64,000 nt of DNA from positions 1,302,001-1,366,000 of the forward strand of contig NZ_FNQB01000002.1 of the NCBI RefSeq assembly GCF_900107455.1, read 5' to 3'. Made by a program: the position numbers and the translations under genes. Below are positions 30,138 through 48,383 of the stretch, one piece after another (within the stretch, counting starts at the first letter, position 1; each line of letters opens with the position of its first letter). Origin of the DNA: Asanoa ishikariensis (GTDB taxonomy: Bacteria > Actinomycetota > Actinomycetes > Mycobacteriales > Micromonosporaceae). The notes under the pieces are model-generated. The model was not told where the DNA came from. It searched no databases and worked only from the letters and a program-made list of their open reading frames with translations.

Positions 30138-31160
30138 CGGACTCCCGGCGCGGCGGCGGCTGCGCTTGTCACCGAGAGTGGAGGGGAGGAAGAGGATGTC
30201 CTTCTGGTTGAGGTTGACGCCCGGCGGAACGATCTCGTCGATCCGGTCCAGCACATCGTCGTCGAGCTCAACGCCGGCGCCGGACAGCAGATTGGCGAGC
30301 TGTGCGGGGGTGCGTGGACCGATGAGTACCGAGGTGACCGCCGGGTGGGTGAGCACGAACGCGATCGCCAGATGGGACATCTTCAGCCCCGCCGCCGCCG
30401 CGAGGTCGGTGAGCTCCGCGACCGCATCCGCCTTCGCCTGGTTTCCCGGTTCTGCCTGGTCGAACAACCGTGTGGCAGGTCCGGCGTTACGGTGACCCGC
30501 CGCCGGGTCGGCCCGGCCGGAGAGCCAGCCGGAGCCGAGTGGGCCGAAGGTCAGCACACCCATGCCGTATCGCTGGGCGGTCGGGAGTGTCGTGGCCTCG
30601 ATGCCGCGCAGCAGGATGTTGTACGGCGGCTGCTCGGATCGGAACCGGTGGTGGTTACGCCGCTCGGCGACCCATTGCGCTTCGACCATCTGCTCCGGGT
30701 GGAACAGCGACGAGCCGATCGCGCGAAGCTTGCCTGCCCGGATCAGATCGGACAGCGCTGAGAGCGTCTCGTCGGGGTCCGTGGCCGGATCCCACCGGTG
30801 CATCTGGTAGAGGTCGATGTAGTCGGTGCCGAGACGGCGCAGGCTCGCCTCCACGGCTTGAATGATCCATCTGCGGGATCCGCCGCGTTGGTTGTCGTCC
30901 GATCCCATCGGCAGCGCGAACTTGGTGGCCAGGACGACGTCGTCGCGCCGCCCCTTCAGCGCCTTGCCGACGATCTCCTCGCTCTCGCCGCCGGAGTACA
31001 CGTCCGCGGTGTCGATGAAGTTGATGCCCGCGTCCAGCGCGGTGTGGATCATGCCCACCGACTCGTCGTGATCTGTGTTACCCATCGCGCCGAGCATCAT
31101 CGTGCCGAGCGCGAGCTCGCTCACCGAAATGCCCGTACCACCGAGGATTCTGTGTTTCAT
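30123..31160 (-). CDS. Aldo/keto reductase
   Basis: 345-residue NADPH-dependent aldo/keto reductase with a TIM-barrel fold. It opens with KHRILGGTGISVSELALGTM. The catalytic tetrad is visible: Asp and Tyr in NFIDTADVYSGGESE, Lys in VVLATKFALPMG, His in LYQMHRWDPATD. The NADPH segment VLTFGPLGSGWLSGR and the C-terminal TSVLIGPRTPAQL follow. ATG 31160 has GGAGAA upstream; the longer open frame to 31607 is antisense to the XRE regulator. It is divergent from the XRE regulator (147 bp), which probably controls it, as in many actinobacterial AKR/MmyB pairs. Confidence 0.9.
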   Translation of the reverse strand: MKHRILGGTGISVSELALGTMMLGAMGNTDHDESVGMIHTALDAGINFIDTADVYSGGESEEIVGKALKGRRDDVVLATKFALPMGSDDNQRGGSRRWIIQAVEASLRRLGTDYIDLYQMHRWDPATDPDETLSALSDLIRAGKLRAIGSSLFHPEQMVEAQWVAERRNHHRFRSEQPPYNILLRGIEATTLPTAQRYGMGVLTFGPLGSGWLSGRADPAAGHRNAGPATRLFDQAEPGNQAKADAVAELTDLAAAAGLKMSHLAIAFVLTHPAVTSVLIGPRTPAQLANLLSGAGVELDDDVLDRIDEIVPPGVNLNQKDILFLPSTLGDKRSRRRAGSPGQPS

Positions 31161-40716: not shown

Positions 40717-40808
40717 GCGGCCACCGCGGCACGGATTACAGGGGCGTTGACGGGGGTACGGTGCTGACAGTCGCAGCTCATCCGGCAACCCTATTCGAGG
40801 GACCTTCC

Positions 40809-41354
40809 ATGACCCGGCAGATCTTCCAGCTCAAGGTGACGCTGGCCGACGTGCTGCCTGAGGTGTGGCGTCGGGTGGAGGTGCCGGGCGCGTACACGCT
40901 CGACCGGGTGCACCGGGTGATCCAGCTCGCGATGGGCTGGCAGAACTACCACCTGCATTCGTTCGAGATCGCCGGCGCGCAGTACGGCGATCCCGACCCC
41001 GACGGCGAGCTGGCCGTGAGTGACGAGCTCGAGGTGCGCCTCGACGCCGTCGCGCGCAAGGGCAGCCGGCTGCTCTACGTCTACGACTTCGGCGACTGGT
41101 GGGAGCACGAGTTGCTGGTGGAGGACGTCTTCGCCGCCGAGCCGGACGAGCGCTACCCCCGCTGCGTCGCGGGCGAGCGGGCCTGCCCGCCGGAGGACGT
41201 CGGCGGGGTGTTCGGTTACGCGGAGCTGTTGGTGGCCCTGCACGAGGCGGACCATCCCCAGCACGCCGAGCTGCGGAGCTGGGTCGGGCCCGGTTTCACG
41301 CCCGACGCGTTCGACCCGGCACGGGCGACGACGCTGCTGCGTCGCCTGACATAA
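40809..41354 (+). CDS. Plasmid pRiA4b ORF-3-like family protein
   Basis: 181-residue protein with the family's ferredoxin-like N-terminus (MTRQIFQLKVTLADVLPEVW then RRVEVPGAYTLDRVHRVIQL) and the signature YVYDFGDWWEHELLVEDVF. CVAGERACPPEDVGGVFGYA is also typical. The family occurs on plasmids, transposons and chromosomes and has no known activity. It is divergent from the RibD-like gene and lies 86 bp before the HerA-like operon on the same strand. GAGGGAC precedes ATG 40809. Confidence 0.85.
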   Translation: MTRQIFQLKVTLADVLPEVWRRVEVPGAYTLDRVHRVIQLAMGWQNYHLHSFEIAGAQYGDPDPDGELAVSDELEVRLDAVARKGSRLLYVYDFGDWWEHELLVEDVFAAEPDERYPRCVAGERACPPEDVGGVFGYAELLVALHEADHPQHAELRSWVGPGFTPDAFDPARATTLLRRLT

Positions 41355-41440
41355 GCCTCCCAAAAGGGTGAAACAGTCTTTCGTCCCATCTGGCACCGCC
41401 CCGCGCGTCGACTGTGAGCTGGTCGTACGGATGTTGCAAG

Positions 41441-43204
41441 ATGCCAGTCGTGGGAGTGGAAGCTTTGGGTGAACAGACCGCGGTCGGCCGGGTGCTCGGC
41501 ACCTCCGACGCCACTCCGTTGCAGTTCTGGACGGCTGTCGCGCCGGGCAGCTACCTGCAACTCGACGACGTCGTGGTGACCACCCGTGAGCTGCCCGACC
41601 GGCCACCGGTGCGGATCGCCGGCGTGGTGACGCAGGTCCGGGCTCGGCACGAGGGTGCGGTCTTCGACAGCGACGTCTTCTCGATCGCCGACGGCACGCT
41701 GCCCGCCCAGGTGCAGGAGGCCGCCGAGATCACCGTCACCCGGGTCGACCCGGAGCTCTACGTGCCGCCGGCGCCGGGCGCGATGGTCCACCGGGCCACC
41801 GGCGACCTGCGCGCTGCCGCGTTGCACTTCGACCGGATGGAACGGCAGATCCCGATGGGCACGGGGCGCGACGGCAACCCGGTCTACCTCAACGCCGACT
41901 TCCTCGACGGCACCCGGGGCGCGCACGTGTCGATCTCCGGCATCTCCGGCGTCGCCACCAAGACCAGCTTCGCGACGTTCCTGCTCTACGCGGTCTTCAA
42001 CTCGGGCGCGCTGGGCGGCGACGCGGTCAACGCCAAGGCGCTGATCTTCAACGTCAAGGGCGAGGACCTGCTCTTTCTCGACCACCCCAACGTCAAGCTC
42101 GACGAGAAGACCGTCGCGGCGTACGCGGGCCTCGGGCTGCCGGCCAAGCCGTTCGGCGACGTCCGGGTCTACGCGCCGCCGAGGATGGGTGACGCGTCCG
42201 GCACCCCCGACGTCAACAGCCGGCTGACCGGCGTCGACAGCTTCTACTGGACGCTCGAGGAGTTCTGCGGCGGCTCGCTGCTGCCCTACGTCTTCGCCGA
42301 CGCCGACGACGAGCGCCAGCAATACACGATGGTCGTGCACGCCGTCACCGCCCACCTGGCCCGGCACGCGGTGCCCGCCGACGGCGGGGTCGCGATCGAC
42401 GGCACCCGACTCAGCTCCTACGCCGACCTCGTCGACTTCGTGGTCGCGCAGCTCTCCGACGACGAGACCCGGTTCACCTGGACGGGCAGCGCGGTCGGGC
42501 TCGGCACCGTCAACGCGTTCGCCCGTCGGCTGATCGCGAGCAAGCGCGACCTCGGCCGGCTGATCCGCGGCGACCTGGCCACCCGCCGGCCGCACCAGAT
42601 CAACACCGACGAGAGCGCCCAGGTCACCGTCGTCGACCTGCACAACCTGCCGGACCGCGCCCAGCGGTTCGTGGTCGGCGTGACGCTCAAGAAGGAGTTC
42701 GAGCGCAAGGAGAAGAAGGGCACGGCCAAGCCGCTGCTCTTCGTGGTGCTCGACGAACTGAACAAGTACGCGCCCCGGGAGGGCTCCTCGCCGATCAAGG
42801 AGGTGCTGCTCGACATCGCCGAGCGGGGCCGCTCGCTCGGCGTGATCCTGATCGGCGCGCAGCAGACCGCCAGCGAGGTCGAGCGCCGCATCGTCACCAA
42901 CTCGGCGGTGCGCGTGGTCGGCCGGCTCGACCCGGCCGAGGCGTCGCGTCCGGAATACGGCTTCCTCCCGCCCGCTCAGCGGCAGCGGGTGCTGCTGGCC
43001 AAGCCCGGCACCATGTTCGTCAACCAGCCCGACATCCCGGTGCCGCTGTGCCTGGACTTCCCGTTCCCGTCGTGGGCCACCCGGCACTCCGAGGCGGGCG
43101 CGGCACCGAGCGGTTCGCTGCGCTCGGTCACCCAGTCCGCCGATCCGTTCGCGGTGATCGGCTCGCGGTCGGGCACGCTGTCCGACGACGACATCCCGTT
43201 CTAG
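41441..43204 (+). CDS. herA: HerA-like hexameric ATPase/translocase (DUF87)
   Basis: 587-residue ATPase of the FtsK-HerA superfamily. The N-terminal HAS-barrel-like domain (1-130) includes GRVLGTSDATPLQFWTAVAP and VVTQVRARHEGAVFDSDVFS. Walker A is GISGVATKT (167-175). Walker B is LLFVVLDEL with Asp438-Glu439, and sensor/arginine-finger region IGAQQTASEVERRIVTNSAV follows. HerA hexamers pump DNA and work with NurA in end resection. ATG 41441 is used; GTG 41450 is an alternative. sbcD follows after 13 bp, then sbcC and a NurA-like gene, so all four form one operon. Confidence 0.85.
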   Translation: MPVVGVEALGEQTAVGRVLGTSDATPLQFWTAVAPGSYLQLDDVVVTTRELPDRPPVRIAGVVTQVRARHEGAVFDSDVFSIADGTLPAQVQEAAEITVTRVDPELYVPPAPGAMVHRATGDLRAAALHFDRMERQIPMGTGRDGNPVYLNADFLDGTRGAHVSISGISGVATKTSFATFLLYAVFNSGALGGDAVNAKALIFNVKGEDLLFLDHPNVKLDEKTVAAYAGLGLPAKPFGDVRVYAPPRMGDASGTPDVNSRLTGVDSFYWTLEEFCGGSLLPYVFADADDERQQYTMVVHAVTAHLARHAVPADGGVAIDGTRLSSYADLVDFVVAQLSDDETRFTWTGSAVGLGTVNAFARRLIASKRDLGRLIRGDLATRRPHQINTDESAQVTVVDLHNLPDRAQRFVVGVTLKKEFERKEKKGTAKPLLFVVLDELNKYAPREGSSPIKEVLLDIAERGRSLGVILIGAQQTASEVERRIVTNSAVRVVGRLDPAEASRPEYGFLPPAQRQRVLLAKPGTMFVNQPDIPVPLCLDFPFPSWATRHSEAGAAPSGSLRSVTQSADPFAVIGSRSGTLSDDDIPF

Positions 43205-43217
43205 AGAAAGGCTCGCC

Positions 43218-44363
43218 GTGCGCATCCTGCACACCTCGGACTGGCACGTCGGCAAGGTCCTCAAGGGACAGTCGCGGGTCGAGGAGCACGTGGCCGTGCT
43301 CGCCCAGGTGGTCGAGATCGCCCGTGCCGAGCAGCCCGACCTGGTGATCGTGGCCGGCGACCTCTACGACACCGCGGCACCGTCGCCCGAGTCCACCCGG
43401 CTGGTCACCCGCGCCCTGTCGGCGTTGCGCCGCACGGGCGCCGACGTCGTCGCGATCGGCGGCAACCACGACAACGGCGCCGCGCTCGACGCCCTGCGGC
43501 CCTGGGCCGACGCGGCCGGCATCACGCTGCGCGGCAGCGTCCGCGACCAGCCGGCCGAGCACGTGATCGAGGGCACCACGTCGGCCGGTGAGCGGTGGCG
43601 CCTGGTCGCCCTGCCGTTCCTGTCGCAGCGCTACGCGGTCCGCGCGGTGGAGATGTACGACCTGACCGCGGCCGAGGCGACCCAGACCTACGCGGACCAC
43701 CTGGCCCGGCTGCTCGGCAAGCTGACCGAGGGCTTCAGCGAGGCGGGCGTGGTCAACCTGGTCACCGCGCACGTCACCGTGGTCGGCGCCAGCCAGGGCG
43801 GCGGCGAGCGTGAGTCGCAGACGGTCCTGGGCTATGCCGTGCCGGCCACCGTGTTCCCGAACAACACGCACTATGTGGCGCTCGGCCACCTGCACCGCGC
43901 CCAGACGGTGCTCGGGCCCTGCCAGATCCGCTACAGCGGCAGCCCGCTCGCGATCGACTTCGGCGAGGGCGAGAACGTGCCTGCGGTCTCGGTGGTCGAC
44001 GTCACCGCGCAGACCGCGGCCAAGGTACGCGAGGTGCCGGTCACCTCGGCGTCCGCGCTGCGCACCGTGCGGGGCTCCCTCGAACAGTTGGCTTCCTTGA
44101 AGACGGGCGATGCCTGGCTGCGGGTGTACGTGCGCGAACTGCCCCGGGCCGGCCTGCGCGAAGAGGTCCAGGAGATGCTGCCCCGTGCCCTGGAGGTGCG
44201 GATCGACCCGGACATGATCGCGTCCACCCCGGGCCCACGGGCGGAAGAACGGGCCGGGCGCTCGCCCCGCGACCTGTTCGCCGATTACCTGGCCAGCCGC
44301 GGCGTCTCCGACGAAGGCGTGCAGGAACTGTTCGACGAGTTGTACGAGGAGACTTCCGCATGA
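43218..44363 (+). CDS. sbcD: Exonuclease subunit SbcD (Mre11 homologue)
   Basis: 381-residue calcineurin-like phosphoesterase. Metal-binding motifs are in order: SDWHVG (D8, H10), AGDLYD (D48), GGNHDN (N83, H84), the His in VTAHVTVVG and GHLH near residue 218-221. It cleaves DNA ends and hairpins in complex with the SbcC ATPase. The C-terminal capping region (after residue 270) holds the SbcC contact. GTG 43218 has AGAAAGG upstream. Its stop overlaps the SbcC start (ATGA). Confidence 0.95.
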   Translation: MRILHTSDWHVGKVLKGQSRVEEHVAVLAQVVEIARAEQPDLVIVAGDLYDTAAPSPESTRLVTRALSALRRTGADVVAIGGNHDNGAALDALRPWADAAGITLRGSVRDQPAEHVIEGTTSAGERWRLVALPFLSQRYAVRAVEMYDLTAAEATQTYADHLARLLGKLTEGFSEAGVVNLVTAHVTVVGASQGGGERESQTVLGYAVPATVFPNNTHYVALGHLHRAQTVLGPCQIRYSGSPLAIDFGEGENVPAVSVVDVTAQTAAKVREVPVTSASALRTVRGSLEQLASLKTGDAWLRVYVRELPRAGLREEVQEMLPRALEVRIDPDMIASTPGPRAEERAGRSPRDLFADYLASRGVSDEGVQELFDELYEETSA

Positions 44364-46837
44364 GGCCGTTGAGGCTCGACATGGCGGGGTTCACGGTCTT
44401 CAGGGACGAGACCACCGTCGACTTCATGGATGCCGACTTCTTCGCGCTCGTCGGGCCGACGGGCTCCGGGAAGTCGACCGTGCTCGACGCGATCTGCTTC
44501 GCCCTGTACGGCCAGGTGCCGCGGTGGGGGAGCAGCCGGGGCATCGCCAACGCGCTGTCGCCCTCGGCGACCGAGGCCCGGGTGCGGCTGGTGTTCGAGT
44601 CGGCCGGCGCGCGCTACGTGGCCACCCGGGTGGTCCGCCGGGACAGCCGGGGCAACGTGAAGACCGGCGGCGCCGGCCTCCAACAGATGCCCGACAACTT
44701 CGACGTGTCCAAACTCGACACCGGGATGACGCCGGAGGACCTCGGCGACGTGCTGGCCGGCACCCCCGCCGAGATGGACGAGGCGGTGCTGCACGCCGTC
44801 GGGCTGCCGTACGAGCAGTTCACGAGCTGCGTCATCCTGCCGCAGGGGCAGTTCGCCGACTTCCTGCACGCCAAGCCCGCCACCCGCCAGCAGATCCTGG
44901 TCAACCTGCTCGGCCTGCACGTCTACGAAGACGTCCAGAAGCGGGCCTCCGCCCGCGCTCAGCAGGCCGACGCCGACCTGCGCGCGGTCGACCAACTGCT
45001 GGCCGGGCTCGACGACACCTCCGACGAGGCACTGGCCGACGCGGCCGAGCGGGTCGAGGCCATGCTCGCGCTGGCGACCAGGGTCACCGACGACATGCCG
45101 GGGCTCGACGAGGCGCGGCAGACGGCCCTCTCGGCGGCGGCCGGGCTGTCGGCCATCGACGACGAGATCGCGCTGCTCGACCGGGTCCGTCCGCCCCGCG
45201 GCGTGGCCGCCCTGGCCGAGGCGGCGACGGCCGCCCGCGAGACGGCCGAGGCAGCCGCCGACGGGGTGACCGCGGCCGAGGAGCACGAGGAGAAGCTGCG
45301 CGGCGAGCTCACCGCGGCCGGCGACGCCTCCGCGCTGCGGCTGTTGCTGCGCGCGCACGAGGAGCACGACGCGGTCGTCGCCGAGTCGACCTCCCTCCAG
45401 GATGGACTCGGCGCGGCCACCAAGGAGCACCGCACCGCGGCGGCGGCCCTGGAGACGGCACGCGCGGCGGCGCTGCGCACGGCGACCGAGTTGGACGCGG
45501 CCCGGCGGGCGTACCAGGACGCACAGGCGGCCGACCGGGCCGGGGCGCTGCGCGTACACCTGCATGCCGGTGCGCCCTGCCCGGTCTGCGAGCAGCCGGT
45601 GACGGCGGTGCCGGCGGTCCCGGCGACCTCGGCGGTGCCCGCGGCGGAGCAGGCCGGGCACGCGGCCAAGGCGGCCGACGAGAAGGCGCAGGCCCAGGTG
45701 ACCGAGCGGGAACAGGCTGCCCGGGCGTTGGAGCGCACCCTCGACCGGGCCCGCGCCCAGCACGAGCAGCTCGCGTCCCGGCTGGCCACCCTTGACACCC
45801 AGCTCGCCACGTCGCCCGGCGTCACCGCCCTGCGCCGGGAGCTGACCACCCTGGCGGGGCTGCAGAAGTCGTTGGACGCGGCGGTCGCGGCCCTGAAGTC
45901 GGCCCGTGAGCAGGCCCGCACCGCGGTGGCCGGGCGCGCGGCGGCGGAGCAGCGGTTGACCCGGGCGTGGCAGGAGTTCGACGCCGCCCGCGACGCGGTG
46001 GCCCGGTTCGCGCCACCGGCGGCGGCCCGCGAAGACCTGGCCGCTTCCTGGTCGGCCCTGGCCGGCTGGTCGGTGTCCGAAGTGGAGACCCGCCGGACCG
46101 CACGCGCCGCGCTGGCGGCGAGCGCGGCCGACGCCGACGCGGCGGTCGCGGTGGTGCGCGCGCGGCTCGACGCCGCATTCGTGGACGCCGGGCTGCCGGC
46201 ACCCGACGACCATGTCCGGGCGGCGACGGTGGCCGTCGAACGGGCCACCGCCGCACACGAGCGGGTCGAGGAGCGCCGGGCACAGGTGCGCGGGCTGCTC
46301 GACAAGCGGGTGGCGCACGAGCGCGACGGCCACGTGGCCAAGGCGCTCGCCGGCCACCTGCGGGCCAACAACTTCGAGCGCTGGCTGCTGGAGGAGGCGC
46401 TCGACCTGCTGGTCGAGGGCGCTTCGCGGATCCTGCGCGAGCTGTCCAGCGGACAATATGACCTCGTACACGAGAAGGGCGAGTTCTCGGTCGTCGACCA
46501 CCACGACGCCGGGCTGCGCCGGGGCGTCCGGACCCTGTCGGGCGGTGAGACGTTCCAGGCGTCGCTGGCCCTCGCGCTGGCGCTGGCCGAGCAGCTCGCC
46601 GGCATGTCGACGTCGGCGGCCAGCCTGGAGTCGATCCTGCTCGACGAGGGTTTCGGGACGTTGGACGCCGCGACGCTGGACACCGTGGCCGCGACGCTGG
46701 AAGGCCTGGCCGCCCGCGGCGACCGGATGGTCGGCGTGGTCACCCACGTGCCGGCGCTGGCCGAACGCGTGCCGGTGCGGTTCGACGTCAGCAAGGACGC
46801 CCGGTCCGTCGCCCACATCACCCGGAGCGGGATATGA
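44360..46837 (+). CDS. sbcC: SbcC (Rad50 homologue) SMC-like ATPase
   Basis: 825-residue SMC-family ATPase. Walker A is VGPTGSGKST (31-40). Q-loop region YEQFTSCVILPQGQFADFLH follows. Two coiled-coil arms (about 190-400 and 420-650) are joined by a zinc hook CPVC near residue 409. The signature is LSGGETFQASLALALALAEQ and Walker B SILLDEGFGTLD. It opens and tethers DNA ends for SbcD. The coils are shorter than in E. coli SbcC (about 1050 residues). The start overlaps sbcD by 4 bp and its stop overlaps the NurA-like gene by 4 bp. Confidence 0.95.
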   Translation: MRPLRLDMAGFTVFRDETTVDFMDADFFALVGPTGSGKSTVLDAICFALYGQVPRWGSSRGIANALSPSATEARVRLVFESAGARYVATRVVRRDSRGNVKTGGAGLQQMPDNFDVSKLDTGMTPEDLGDVLAGTPAEMDEAVLHAVGLPYEQFTSCVILPQGQFADFLHAKPATRQQILVNLLGLHVYEDVQKRASARAQQADADLRAVDQLLAGLDDTSDEALADAAERVEAMLALATRVTDDMPGLDEARQTALSAAAGLSAIDDEIALLDRVRPPRGVAALAEAATAARETAEAAADGVTAAEEHEEKLRGELTAAGDASALRLLLRAHEEHDAVVAESTSLQDGLGAATKEHRTAAAALETARAAALRTATELDAARRAYQDAQAADRAGALRVHLHAGAPCPVCEQPVTAVPAVPATSAVPAAEQAGHAAKAADEKAQAQVTEREQAARALERTLDRARAQHEQLASRLATLDTQLATSPGVTALRRELTTLAGLQKSLDAAVAALKSAREQARTAVAGRAAAEQRLTRAWQEFDAARDAVARFAPPAAAREDLAASWSALAGWSVSEVETRRTARAALAASAADADAAVAVVRARLDAAFVDAGLPAPDDHVRAATVAVERATAAHERVEERRAQVRGLLDKRVAHERDGHVAKALAGHLRANNFERWLLEEALDLLVEGASRILRELSSGQYDLVHEKGEFSVVDHHDAGLRRGVRTLSGGETFQASLALALALAEQLAGMSTSAASLESILLDEGFGTLDAATLDTVAATLEGLAARGDRMVGVVTHVPALAERVPVRFDVSKDARSVAHITRSGI

Positions 46838-47799
46838 CGGAATACTTCATCGACAACTGGGACCCGGCCTACGGAGCCTCCTTCGAAGCGGCGCCGGTCT
46901 CACAGAGCACGGCCCAGATCAACACCGACGTGGAGCTACCGGCGGCCGCCTGGCGCCCGCTCACCGCCCCACCGACGGTGCGGGCGCCCGACGTGGTCCT
47001 GCTGGTCGACGGCGTGCGCCGGATCGACGCGACACTGTGGACGCGCGAGGAGGACGGCACGTCGCATCCGGGCCTGGCGGCGTCCTACGCGGCCGGGGTG
47101 GTCCGCTGTGACCTGCGCGCGGGCGCGGCGACGTTGGCCGGCACGCTGGTCGAACGCGGCCTGTTCACCACGTCCCCGACGGCGACGGACATCGAGGCCG
47201 GCTCGGTCCGCTACGGCGTGCGCCAGATGGCCGGCGCGCCGGACCCGGCCCGGCTGGTGCCGGCCGTGCAGGGCCCGCTGACCGCGCTGGAGGTGGCGAT
47301 CTCCACCTCGGTCCGTGGCGAGTCCGAGGACCTGCTGGTCCTGGACGGCCCACTGCGCAACCGCCGCCAGCTCAGCCGCACGATCGGCTACGTCAAGACG
47401 CAGCAGAGCCAGTACCTGGACGCGACCCTGACCAAGGTGGTCACCGCCCTGCGCCCCGGCGAACGCTCGCCGGTCTTCCTGATGGGCACCGCGTGGGGCG
47501 GCTACTCCTGGTACCTGCGTCTCCCCGGCCCGGCCGGCGCACCGTGGGCGGGCATCGTCCGCGTCGAGTGCACGACCGAGATCCCGGCGCAGGAGGCGAT
47601 CGAGCTGGCCGACCTGTCGCTGGTCACGCTGCCGCGGTTCGCCTCGAACCCGTACAAGGACCCGCGGGCCCCCCAGAACCTGATCCCGATCGCGGGCCTC
47701 GAACGCCGCCTACGCGCCCTACTCGGCGACTCCCGCCTCCTGCACCGCGCCCTGACCCTCGCGGCCGCCCGCAGCACCGCGGTACCCGCAGCTTTGTAA
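46834..47799 (+). CDS. nurA: NurA-like DNA end-resection nuclease
   Basis: 321-residue protein with the NurA fold (RNase H-like). The first metal-binding Asp is D59 in VVLLVDGVRRIDATLW, a second is D171 in LLVLDGPLRNR, and the conserved Lys is K188 in GYVKTQQSQYL. The C-terminal PQNLIPIAGLERRLRALLGD is also typical. NurA removes the 5' strand while HerA moves DNA. It starts inside the sbcC stop codon (ATGA), and the HerA-like gene heads the same operon, which strongly supports the call. Sequence identity to archaeal NurA is low as far as I can judge from motifs alone. Confidence 0.8.
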   Translation: MTEYFIDNWDPAYGASFEAAPVSQSTAQINTDVELPAAAWRPLTAPPTVRAPDVVLLVDGVRRIDATLWTREEDGTSHPGLAASYAAGVVRCDLRAGAATLAGTLVERGLFTTSPTATDIEAGSVRYGVRQMAGAPDPARLVPAVQGPLTALEVAISTSVRGESEDLLVLDGPLRNRRQLSRTIGYVKTQQSQYLDATLTKVVTALRPGERSPVFLMGTAWGGYSWYLRLPGPAGAPWAGIVRVECTTEIPAQEAIELADLSLVTLPRFASNPYKDPRAPQNLIPIAGLERRLRALLGDSRLLHRALTLAAARSTAVPAAL

Positions 47800-47828
47800 T
47801 CATGCGAAACTGGACGCGGAGGTGAGTG

Positions 47829-48383
47829 ATGACGTTGGCAACGCTCGACTGGGCTTCCCTAGGGCCGTGGAGTGAGGACGACTTCTTCCAGCTAGGCGAA
47901 ACCCCCAACCGCATCGAACTCATCGACGGGAGCCTTCTGGTGAGCCCCGCGCCCTCCAAGCGCCACCAGCACCTGAGCCTCCAGCTCGCAGTGGCTTTCA
48001 ACGCCGCAGCCCGGGCGGGCGGTCTGGTGGTGTACGAAGCGGTTAACGTCCGCCTCAAGACCAACCGGATCGTGATTCCGGATCTTGTCGTGGCTGACAC
48101 TGATCATGAGGGATCCGTGGTCGAAGCTGGTGAGGTCAAGCTGGTTTGCGAGATCGTCTCCCCGAGCAACGCGGTAACGGACCGAGTGACCAAGATGAAC
48201 CTGTATGCCGATGCCGGCATACAGGGCTACCTGCTTGTGGAGCGGGACGATTCGGGTCTTCTGCTACGGATGTTCCGGCTTGAGGGCGAACACTATGTGC
48301 TCTCGGCTGAGGCGCGCAGCGGCCAGGTGCTACGGCTGGAGGATCCGGTCAGCCTCGACCTAGAAGTCGATCGGCTCGCGTAG
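47829..48383 (+). CDS. Uma2-family putative endonuclease (PD-(D/E)XK fold)
   Basis: 184-residue Uma2 protein (DUF820). Family signature: RIELIDGSLLVSPAPSKRHQ at the N-terminus, then IVIPDLVVAD (Asp) and KLVCEIVSPSNAVTDRVTKM with Glu and Lys as the restriction-nuclease-like active site, and LYADAGIQGYLLVERDDSGL. The function of Uma2 proteins is unclear; many copies occur in cyanobacteria and actinobacteria. ATG 47829 has GGAGGTG 4-5 nt upstream; the adjacent GTG 47826 is less likely. It overlaps the convergent monooxygenase gene by 35 bp. Confidence 0.85.
   Translation: MTLATLDWASLGPWSEDDFFQLGETPNRIELIDGSLLVSPAPSKRHQHLSLQLAVAFNAAARAGGLVVYEAVNVRLKTNRIVIPDLVVADTDHEGSVVEAGEVKLVCEIVSPSNAVTDRVTKMNLYADAGIQGYLLVERDDSGLLLRMFRLEGEHYVLSAEARSGQVLRLEDPVSLDLEVDRLA

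Follow-up and report, generated by a model that had tools for sequence, protein, structure and literature searches.

In archaea, the genes herA, mre11, rad50 and nurA follow one another in this order. Here, we analysed a locus with the same four functions in a soil actinobacterium: within a 64 kb stretch of contig NZ_FNQB01000002.1 of Asanoa ishikariensis (Micromonosporaceae), hereafter the window, the co-directional plus-strand genes herA, sbcD, sbcC and nurA form one unit (41441..47799). The archaeal counterpart is likewise a single co-directional unit in Sulfolobus, Thermococcus and others (PMC2288612, PMC4351679, PMC12977600), and its genes are described as essential in S. islandicus (PMC4351679). 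The role of HerA-NurA is disputed between resection of broken ends for repair and degradation of foreign DNA (PMC12977600). So far, this end-cutting machinery has been linked chiefly to thermophilic archaea and some unusual bacteria. Bacterial NurA-HerA, which shares less than 20% identity with the archaeal pair, has been reported in only a few bacteria, including Deinococcus radiodurans (PDB 7F6D, 7WRW and 7WRX), whose phylum lacks RecBCD (PMC9960219). The one published bacterial precedent for the four-gene set found in our search, which covered mainly open-access literature, is Oceanithermus profundus (Thermales), in which nurA stands first and sbcD and sbcC lie downstream of nurA-hepA, an arrangement described as a recruitment in that organism (PMC5448004). 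Among the matches listed, judged by titles and the beginnings of abstracts and with subscription literature largely outside the scope, none dealt with a herA-sbcDC-nurA operon in actinobacteria.

The A. ishikariensis locus is a real conserved operon, in which known protein families occur in a little-recognised bacterial form. Its best reading, which we consider probable, is that of a damage-responsive end-resection operon working beside AdnAB, and resection in DNA repair is its best-supported function. Because the gene set is widespread in bacteria and often stands behind an apparent DNA-damage switch, the operon is probably an overlooked bacterial break-repair system. The initial annotation, which was made from the sequence of the window, had called the operon archaeal-type. 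This description fits the gene set but not the proteins, whose best models are bacterial SbcD and SbcC and Deinococcus HerA and NurA rather than archaeal-type sequences. Its account of the layout was reproduced on rechecking, including the four genes on one strand, the 13 bp gap between herA and sbcD (43205-43217) and two ATGA overlaps (sbcD/sbcC at 44360-44363 and sbcC/nurA at 46834-46837), as were the Walker A motif GISGVATKT (residues 167-175) and D438/E439 of HerA, the CPVC motif of SbcC (407-410) and D59 and D171 of NurA. The start of herA had to be revised. Translation probably begins at the in-frame TTG 41465, 24 bases downstream of ATG 41441, because this ATG sits inside a promoter-like element that is conserved and because an ATG takes the place of the TTG in four congeners (L002-L005) (Table 1).

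Table 1 Positions of the operon genes and of the upstream promoter-like element in the window.
Feature	Position	Strand	Basis
Promoter-like element GGTCGTAC-N8-CAAGAT	41421..41442	+	Fits TGTC-N12-[TC]ANNNT of relatives except for the first base
herA, predicted hexameric DNA translocase/ATPase of Deinococcus type (probable start)	41465..43204	+	phmmer match to 7F6D_B, family profile, catalytic residues
sbcD (mre11-like nuclease), GTG start	43218..44363	+	TIGR00619, five phosphoesterase motifs, solved SbcD chains
sbcC (rad50-like ATPase), CPVC zinc hook, 825 amino acids	44360..46837	+	TIGR00618, ATPase motifs
nurA, bacterial-type NurA nuclease, predicted RNase H-like fold	46834..47799	+	7F6D_H, 1ZUP, NurA profile; fold by homology to solved NurA

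The first gene had been proposed to encode a HerA-like ATPase, and its product (read from 41441) matched D. radiodurans HerA (drHerA; 7F6D/7WRW/7WRX) with E=1.8e-148 in phmmer, with 54% identity across 541 compared residues. A profile of 26 HerA sequences recovered drHerA with E=1.6e-199 and, among solved structures, only two further HerA-type chains (E=2.3e-5 and 3.9e-4). An identity as FtsK-like or type VII secretion system ATPase was rejected, as it drew only partial NCBIfam matches with E=0.0016 or weaker. The fourth protein, proposed to be NurA, is a clear homologue of D. radiodurans NurA (drNurA, 7F6D_H; E=2.6e-19) and matched Thermotoga maritima NurA (1ZUP) with E=0.0026. With a 37-sequence NurA profile, drNurA (E=9.9e-64) and 1ZUP (E=4.1e-26) were the only solved proteins recovered at a threshold of E=1. 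The initial annotation had suggested Pfam searches for both proteins, and these were less informative: NurA (PF09376) scored 17.7 bits (E=0.0027), below the curated cut-off of 21, and HerA gave no DUF87 match. A Pfam-only check would therefore miss both proteins.

The sub-threshold Pfam score, together with the absence of NCBIfam and PADLOC matches for the fourth protein, would be expected if unrelated genes had come to lie together by chance or only loosely and that protein were not NurA. The drNurA and profile matches and the linkage in 55 of 60 loci described below contradict this, and because the matches to D. radiodurans HerA and NurA and to the bacterial SbcD and SbcC models are so strong, a chance origin is untenable. 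We regard it as refuted.

Handling of ATP or DNA has been linked to K175, T176, D487, E488, D220, K217, R513, R495 and R552 of drHerA (PMC9960219). For drNurA, a catalytic role is ascribed to D53, K201 and R309, and mutants of these residues were without nuclease activity (PMC9960219). In the alignment, the HerA residues correspond, in the same order, to K174, T175, D438, E439, D209, K206, R464, R446 and R503, so that the DNA-translocation residues R495/R552 are kept as R446/R503, and the NurA residues correspond to D59, K188 and R278. K174, T175, D209, D438 and E439 of HerA are invariant among 26 sequences and R446 and R503 are conserved in at least 90%, while D59, D171, K188 and R278 of NurA are invariant in both the 26- and the 37-sequence alignments. 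All of the listed equivalents were invariant or at least 90% conserved in the 26 sequences. These alignments indicate that HerA and NurA are of the D. radiodurans type and retain the active-site residues that had been probed by mutation.

The assignment of the second and third genes to SbcD and SbcC was also confirmed. SbcD exceeded the cut-off of TIGR00619 (E=9.7e-52), matched the solved SbcD chains 4LTY (E=1.1e-33) and 6S6V (E=1.6e-33) and carries the five phosphoesterase motifs DWH, GDLYD, GNHD, HVT and GHLH. SbcC matched TIGR00618 with E=1.1e-75 and 255 bits, which is below the whole-protein cut-off of that model (478.5), and contains the Walker A motif GPTGSGKS, the CPVC hook, the signature LSGGE and the Walker B motif DEGFGTLD. 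CPxC was kept in 52 of 53 SbcC proteins longer than 700 amino acids from the fetched loci. Judged by these models, both proteins are bacterial-type.

We then asked how far the operon extends beyond A. ishikariensis. A herA gene, single-copy in the window genome, was found in 100 of 101 Micromonosporaceae genomes (A. ishikariensis included) and in all 89 of high quality. It occurs in 17 of 295 genomes of the class, three from Micromonosporaceae and 14 from two other families, and one of these families is probably Streptosporangiaceae, because the HerA of Nonomuraea groups with it. In the phylum, 66 of 296 genomes carry herA, two from Micromonosporaceae and 64 from outside the class, ten of the latter with a distant HerA type. 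These ten belong to one family (f18) and match HerA with E 1e-31 to 1e-37 over residues ~142-563 only; at the one f18 locus fetched (L119), nurA and sbcD were not found nearby and a weak SbcC-like match lay 3.9 kb away.

The linkage in relatives that the initial annotation had wished to see surveyed is conserved. Among 60 phylum loci hand-picked from the herA matches (20 from Micromonosporaceae, 7 of the 14 other class members and 33 of the 64 outside the class), 55 contain all four genes on one strand, 36 in the order herA-sbcD-sbcC-nurA and 19 as nurA-herA-sbcD-sbcC, in which nurA directly adjoins herA. In some of these, inserts of 1 to 4 kb interrupt the cluster. Three of the five incomplete loci are L070, with sbcD 9.6 kb from herA and no nurA found in the fetched stretch, L095, which is cut by a contig end, and L119. 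Further herA loci came from Acidimicrobiia, Deinococcales, Thermaceae, Trueperaceae, Nostocales and Pseudanabaena cyanobacteria and metagenome-assembled genomes of Gemmatimonadota (phyla taken from the record titles), and the whole cluster was present in cyanobacteria, Thermaceae and Gemmatimonadota. Among these named loci, which are the best 80 of 520 herA candidates, 49 are complete (42 herA-first and 7 nurA-first), seven more are cut by contig ends, 11 show nurA-herA only and 13 herA only; two of the last 24 (L170 and L195) reach a contig end.

Phylogenies were inferred for HerA (71 rows) and SbcD (86 rows) as quick trees with support from the Shimodaira-Hasegawa-like approximate likelihood ratio test (SH-aLRT) only. 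In the SbcD tree, all included SbcD of herA-bearing genomes from four phyla, linked or unlinked, form one group (SH-aLRT 99), from which 16 SbcD of herA-less Actinomycetia and that of E. coli fall apart. This distinct SbcD lineage holds against those comparators, as the herA-less genomes in the tree were Actinomycetia plus E. coli only. When SbcD proteins from a 197-genome sample of the class were compared with the window SbcD, those of herA-bearing members reached 334 bits or more and those of herA-less members no more than 141 bits, and one herA-bearing genome (G469) encodes both kinds. The second SbcD of a herA-less genome of the same class (L226, genome G272) lies within the herA-associated group on a long branch. 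The HerA tree agrees with the SbcD tree in that the sampled herA-first operons form one group (SH-aLRT 97); it also places Micromonosporaceae together with Nonomuraea, the two class families and the copy on a Streptomyces plasmid (SH-aLRT 99). The simplest reading of both trees is that one four-gene unit was transferred or retained. The window genome and two other Micromonosporaceae genomes of the class sample contain a single SbcD at E<=1e-20.

To characterise the region in front of the operon, the sequences upstream of herA were aligned, which yielded the element TGTCGTAC-N8-CA..AT. It resembles the consensus of LexA/RecA-independent DNA-damage promoters in mycobacteria, tTGTCRgtg-8 nt-TAnnnT (PMC5656591), the activator of which, PafBC, uses a -26 motif (PMC11804915). 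In Micromonosporaceae, 49 of 79 loci, the window not among them, carry the pattern TGTC-N12-[TC]ANNNT in the 250 nucleotides (nt) before herA, and 44 of 69 do so after removal of similar sequences. About 0.7 matches are expected from shuffled sequences and about 1.2 from the rate in surrounding DNA (~1.5% per 250 nt). The pattern is strand-specific, with 2 of 79 loci matching on the reverse strand, and other spacers from 8 to 16 gave 0 to 4 matches except spacer 15. As the pattern was first noticed in Micromonosporaceae, the independent tests are other sets of loci. It was found before 10 of 31 other herA-first operons (8 of 29 after removal of similar ones). Deep Actinobacteria with the nurA-first order have it in front of nurA in 9 of 19 operons (2 of 19 on the reverse strand) and in front of herA in none of 19. 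It also lies within 300 nt upstream of recA in all 21 Micromonosporaceae genomes compared, and was not found upstream of cyanobacterial and Deinococcota nurA (0 of 17). The window copy is the only.GTCGTAC-N8-[CT]ANNNT match in the 64 kb. The window genome encodes PafB and PafC, with HTH_PafC, WYL and WCX domains, beside the Pup-ligase-family gene pafA. Control of herA by LexA was not supported, since no GAACN4GTTC or CGAAN6TTCG box was present upstream in the window or in the plus-strand loci among 18 relatives. The element speaks for a damage-response role, though it does not in itself prove regulation. This promoter element in front of the operon in Micromonosporaceae is what is new here. 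The protein families were already known.

The enzyme pair AdnAB was searched for elsewhere in the genome. AdnA and AdnB are encoded in tandem and match solved chains, which we take to be those of AdnAB, with E=2.8e-163 (AdnA query without its N-terminal part) and 4.8e-250, respectively. Across the 296 phylum genomes, adnB was detected in 28 of 56 genomes with canonical herA and in 43 of 240 others, a comparison that is uncorrected for shared ancestry, leaves out the ten f18 genomes and, with a threshold of E<=1e-70 and few candidates scored per genome, gives lower bounds. The initial annotation had placed the operon either in place of or beside AdnAB. The second option is supported by the presence of both proteins; replacement was rejected, since AdnA and AdnB occur in the same genome and there is no mutual exclusion of herA and adnB across the phylum. 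The coexistence with AdnAB and the family-wide occurrence also set the A. ishikariensis operon apart from the situation in the Deinococcus phylum.

Several observations weigh against damage-responsive end resection. At the protein level, R154 of drHerA is not kept (D153 in the window HerA). With regard to the promoter, the window copy reads GGTC and CAAGAT, its first base being G where TGTC starts with T; four congeners likewise lack this T (G or A in the window and the congeners), and compared with the strict mycobacterial tTGTCRgtg-N8-TAnnnT the window copy mismatches at more positions. Even with the first base free, 21 of 79 Micromonosporaceae loci were without a match. Spacer 15 forms a minor second peak (11 of 79 loci) and the internal operon genes carry the element at spacer 12 in 2 of 20, 1 of 20 and 2 of 19 cases, which indicates a background above that of shuffled sequences. 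In surrounding DNA, spacers 12 (116) and 15 (118) are commoner than the others (17 to 62). The element was not found in the 400 nt upstream of herA on a Streptomyces plasmid (L284) and in Nonomuraea (L285), nor, as TGTC-N12, in 4 kb around the adnA start (L288). It does precede sbcD in 9 of 17 herA-less Actinomycetia (L217-L233), with no match at any other spacer from 8 to 16, and it may therefore mark SbcCD units in general and not the herA operon specifically. Two phylum loci have herA without adjacent partners: in L089 the only partner, sbcD, lies at a distance of 10.7 kb, and in L091 no partner was found. Moreover, deletion of nurA or herA in D. radiodurans or Thermus is reported to have a modest or even improving effect on damage resistance (PMC9960219), and a 2026 study of T. 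kodakarensis argues that HerA-NurA may not be the resection enzyme and suggests antiviral action (PMC12977600).

Some of these findings would also be expected if HerA-NurA and SbcCD were two independent end nucleases that share a promoter because damage calls for both, without a direct hand-over between them. The element upstream of sbcD in herA-less Actinomycetia fits this explanation, as do loci in which 1 to ~11 kb separate herA from sbcD or sbcC from nurA. A further point for it, and against a joint resection operon, are Thermus and Deinococcales, which keep nurA-herA with no linked sbcDC found in the fetched stretches (among the best 80 of 520; three loci from Deinococcales). In the window, nurA belongs to a herA cluster with sbcDC in between. 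However, the genes stay linked across phyla, in either of two orders, the SbcD proteins of herA-bearing genomes fall into one lineage with L226 as the only herA-less exception inside it, and Mre11 is reported to interact with HerA in Sulfolobus acidocaldarius (PMC2288612). We therefore consider independent action unlikely, although it is the strongest competitor.

An involvement in defence was evaluated as well. In this scenario, HerA would pump foreign linear DNA into NurA while SbcCD attacks its ends, in analogy to Sir2-HerA and DUF4297-HerA. HerA partners do serve immunity elsewhere (PMC11291478, PMC12977600), and the published phage-defence complexes likewise combine a HerA-family hexameric ATPase with an effector, which is, however, a different one (PMC11291478). 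Sir2, DUF4297 or similar effectors were not found among the four operon genes with Pfam, NCBIfam and PADLOC. The window HerA shows only partial and weak similarity to 8XAU (E=0.0017) and 8YHO (E=0.059), which we take to represent particular HerA defence systems. In PADLOC, the best model named HerA reached E=3.7e-6 over 142 residues; parts of HerA and SbcC matched mad8 (E=4.6e-8 over 112 residues, the best overall for HerA) and mad3 (E=5e-28), respectively, and LmuB matched SbcC (E=1e-19). Such ATPase matches are generic, those of HerA span only ~75 to 140 of 587 residues, and NurA had none.

Copies on plasmids also count in favour of defence. A HerA match at E<=1e-5 was present in 6 of 72,556 plasmid records, one of which (Nonomuraea, 11.85 Mb) looks like a chromosome. 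The complete herA-sbcD-sbcC-nurA set lies on the 451 kb linear plasmid NZ_CP134205.1 of Streptomyces sp. BB1-1-1 (L284, 411754-431376), next to TIGR02680, TIGR02678, DUF2397, IrrE-like peptidase and helicase-associated-domain genes, the first three of which are presumably Wadjet-like. At least on this plasmid the system is invisible in the annotation, because HerA and NurA are labelled 'ATP-binding protein' and 'hypothetical protein'. The order nurA-herA-sbcD-sbcC occurs on the 255 kb plasmid AP018315.1 of Sphaerospermopsis kisseleviana (L286), which was typed as conjugative and on which nurA and herA are annotated as hypothetical. Two distant HerA matches were detected among 50,697 phage records. 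In Marinitoga camini virus 1 (KP836355.1, 38522-39847), a protein annotated as 'bipolar DNA helicase HerA' is 25% identical to the window HerA.

For Micromonosporaceae, the near-universal presence of herA, the damage-type promoter in relatives and a fairly stable place relative to recA stand against defence. Both genes share a contig in 13 of 21 compared genomes of the family and are 121-171 kb apart in ten of these, and 285, 319 and 531 kb apart in the others. The immunity alternative of the initial annotation is thereby weakened for this family, though copies of the operon do occur on plasmids. Overall, a defence function appears improbable, and more so than independent action of the two nucleases.

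If the operon serves damage-responsive end resection, the whole unit would, in Actinobacteria, be transcribed from a PafBC-type damage-responsive promoter. SbcC-SbcD would open or clean blocked, hairpin or protein-bound ends. Next, a NurA dimer sitting on the HAS-barrel ring of a HerA hexamer would receive the duplex DNA that this hexamer pumps. Degradation of the pumped DNA by NurA would leave a 3' single strand for RecA, and all this would take place alongside AdnAB. Action of the four proteins as one physical machine is an inference, and so are joint transcription of the genes, assembly of a complex, the enzyme activities, strand polarity, the sequence of steps and induction by damage.

More tentatively, it may be speculated that a widespread damage-inducible resection route exists in which HerA-NurA works with its own lineage of SbcCD, encoded by a travelling four-gene cassette on chromosomes or plasmids, parallel to AdnAB, and that this cassette has replaced ordinary SbcCD in Micromonosporaceae. 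We see this broader scenario as possible, though short of probable. If true, the published view that only few bacteria, such as Deinococcus-Thermus, possess HerA-NurA would be wrong. A culturable actinobacterial family with near-universal HerA-NurA, clustered with SbcCD, present beside AdnAB and often behind a recA-type promoter, offers a tractable bacterial system for the dispute over HerA-NurA.

Three other features of the window were recorded. ARAGORN reported an odd tRNA without assignable anticodon at 30568-30658, which is probably spurious. On the herA flank, 40761-41354 encodes a PRiA4 ORF-3-like protein (PF07929, E=9.7e-66), relatives of which occur in only 2 of the 60 phylum stretches. 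The nurA flank (47826-48383) encodes a putative nuclease of the Uma2 family (PF05685, E=9.8e-26), with relatives in only 1 of the 60.

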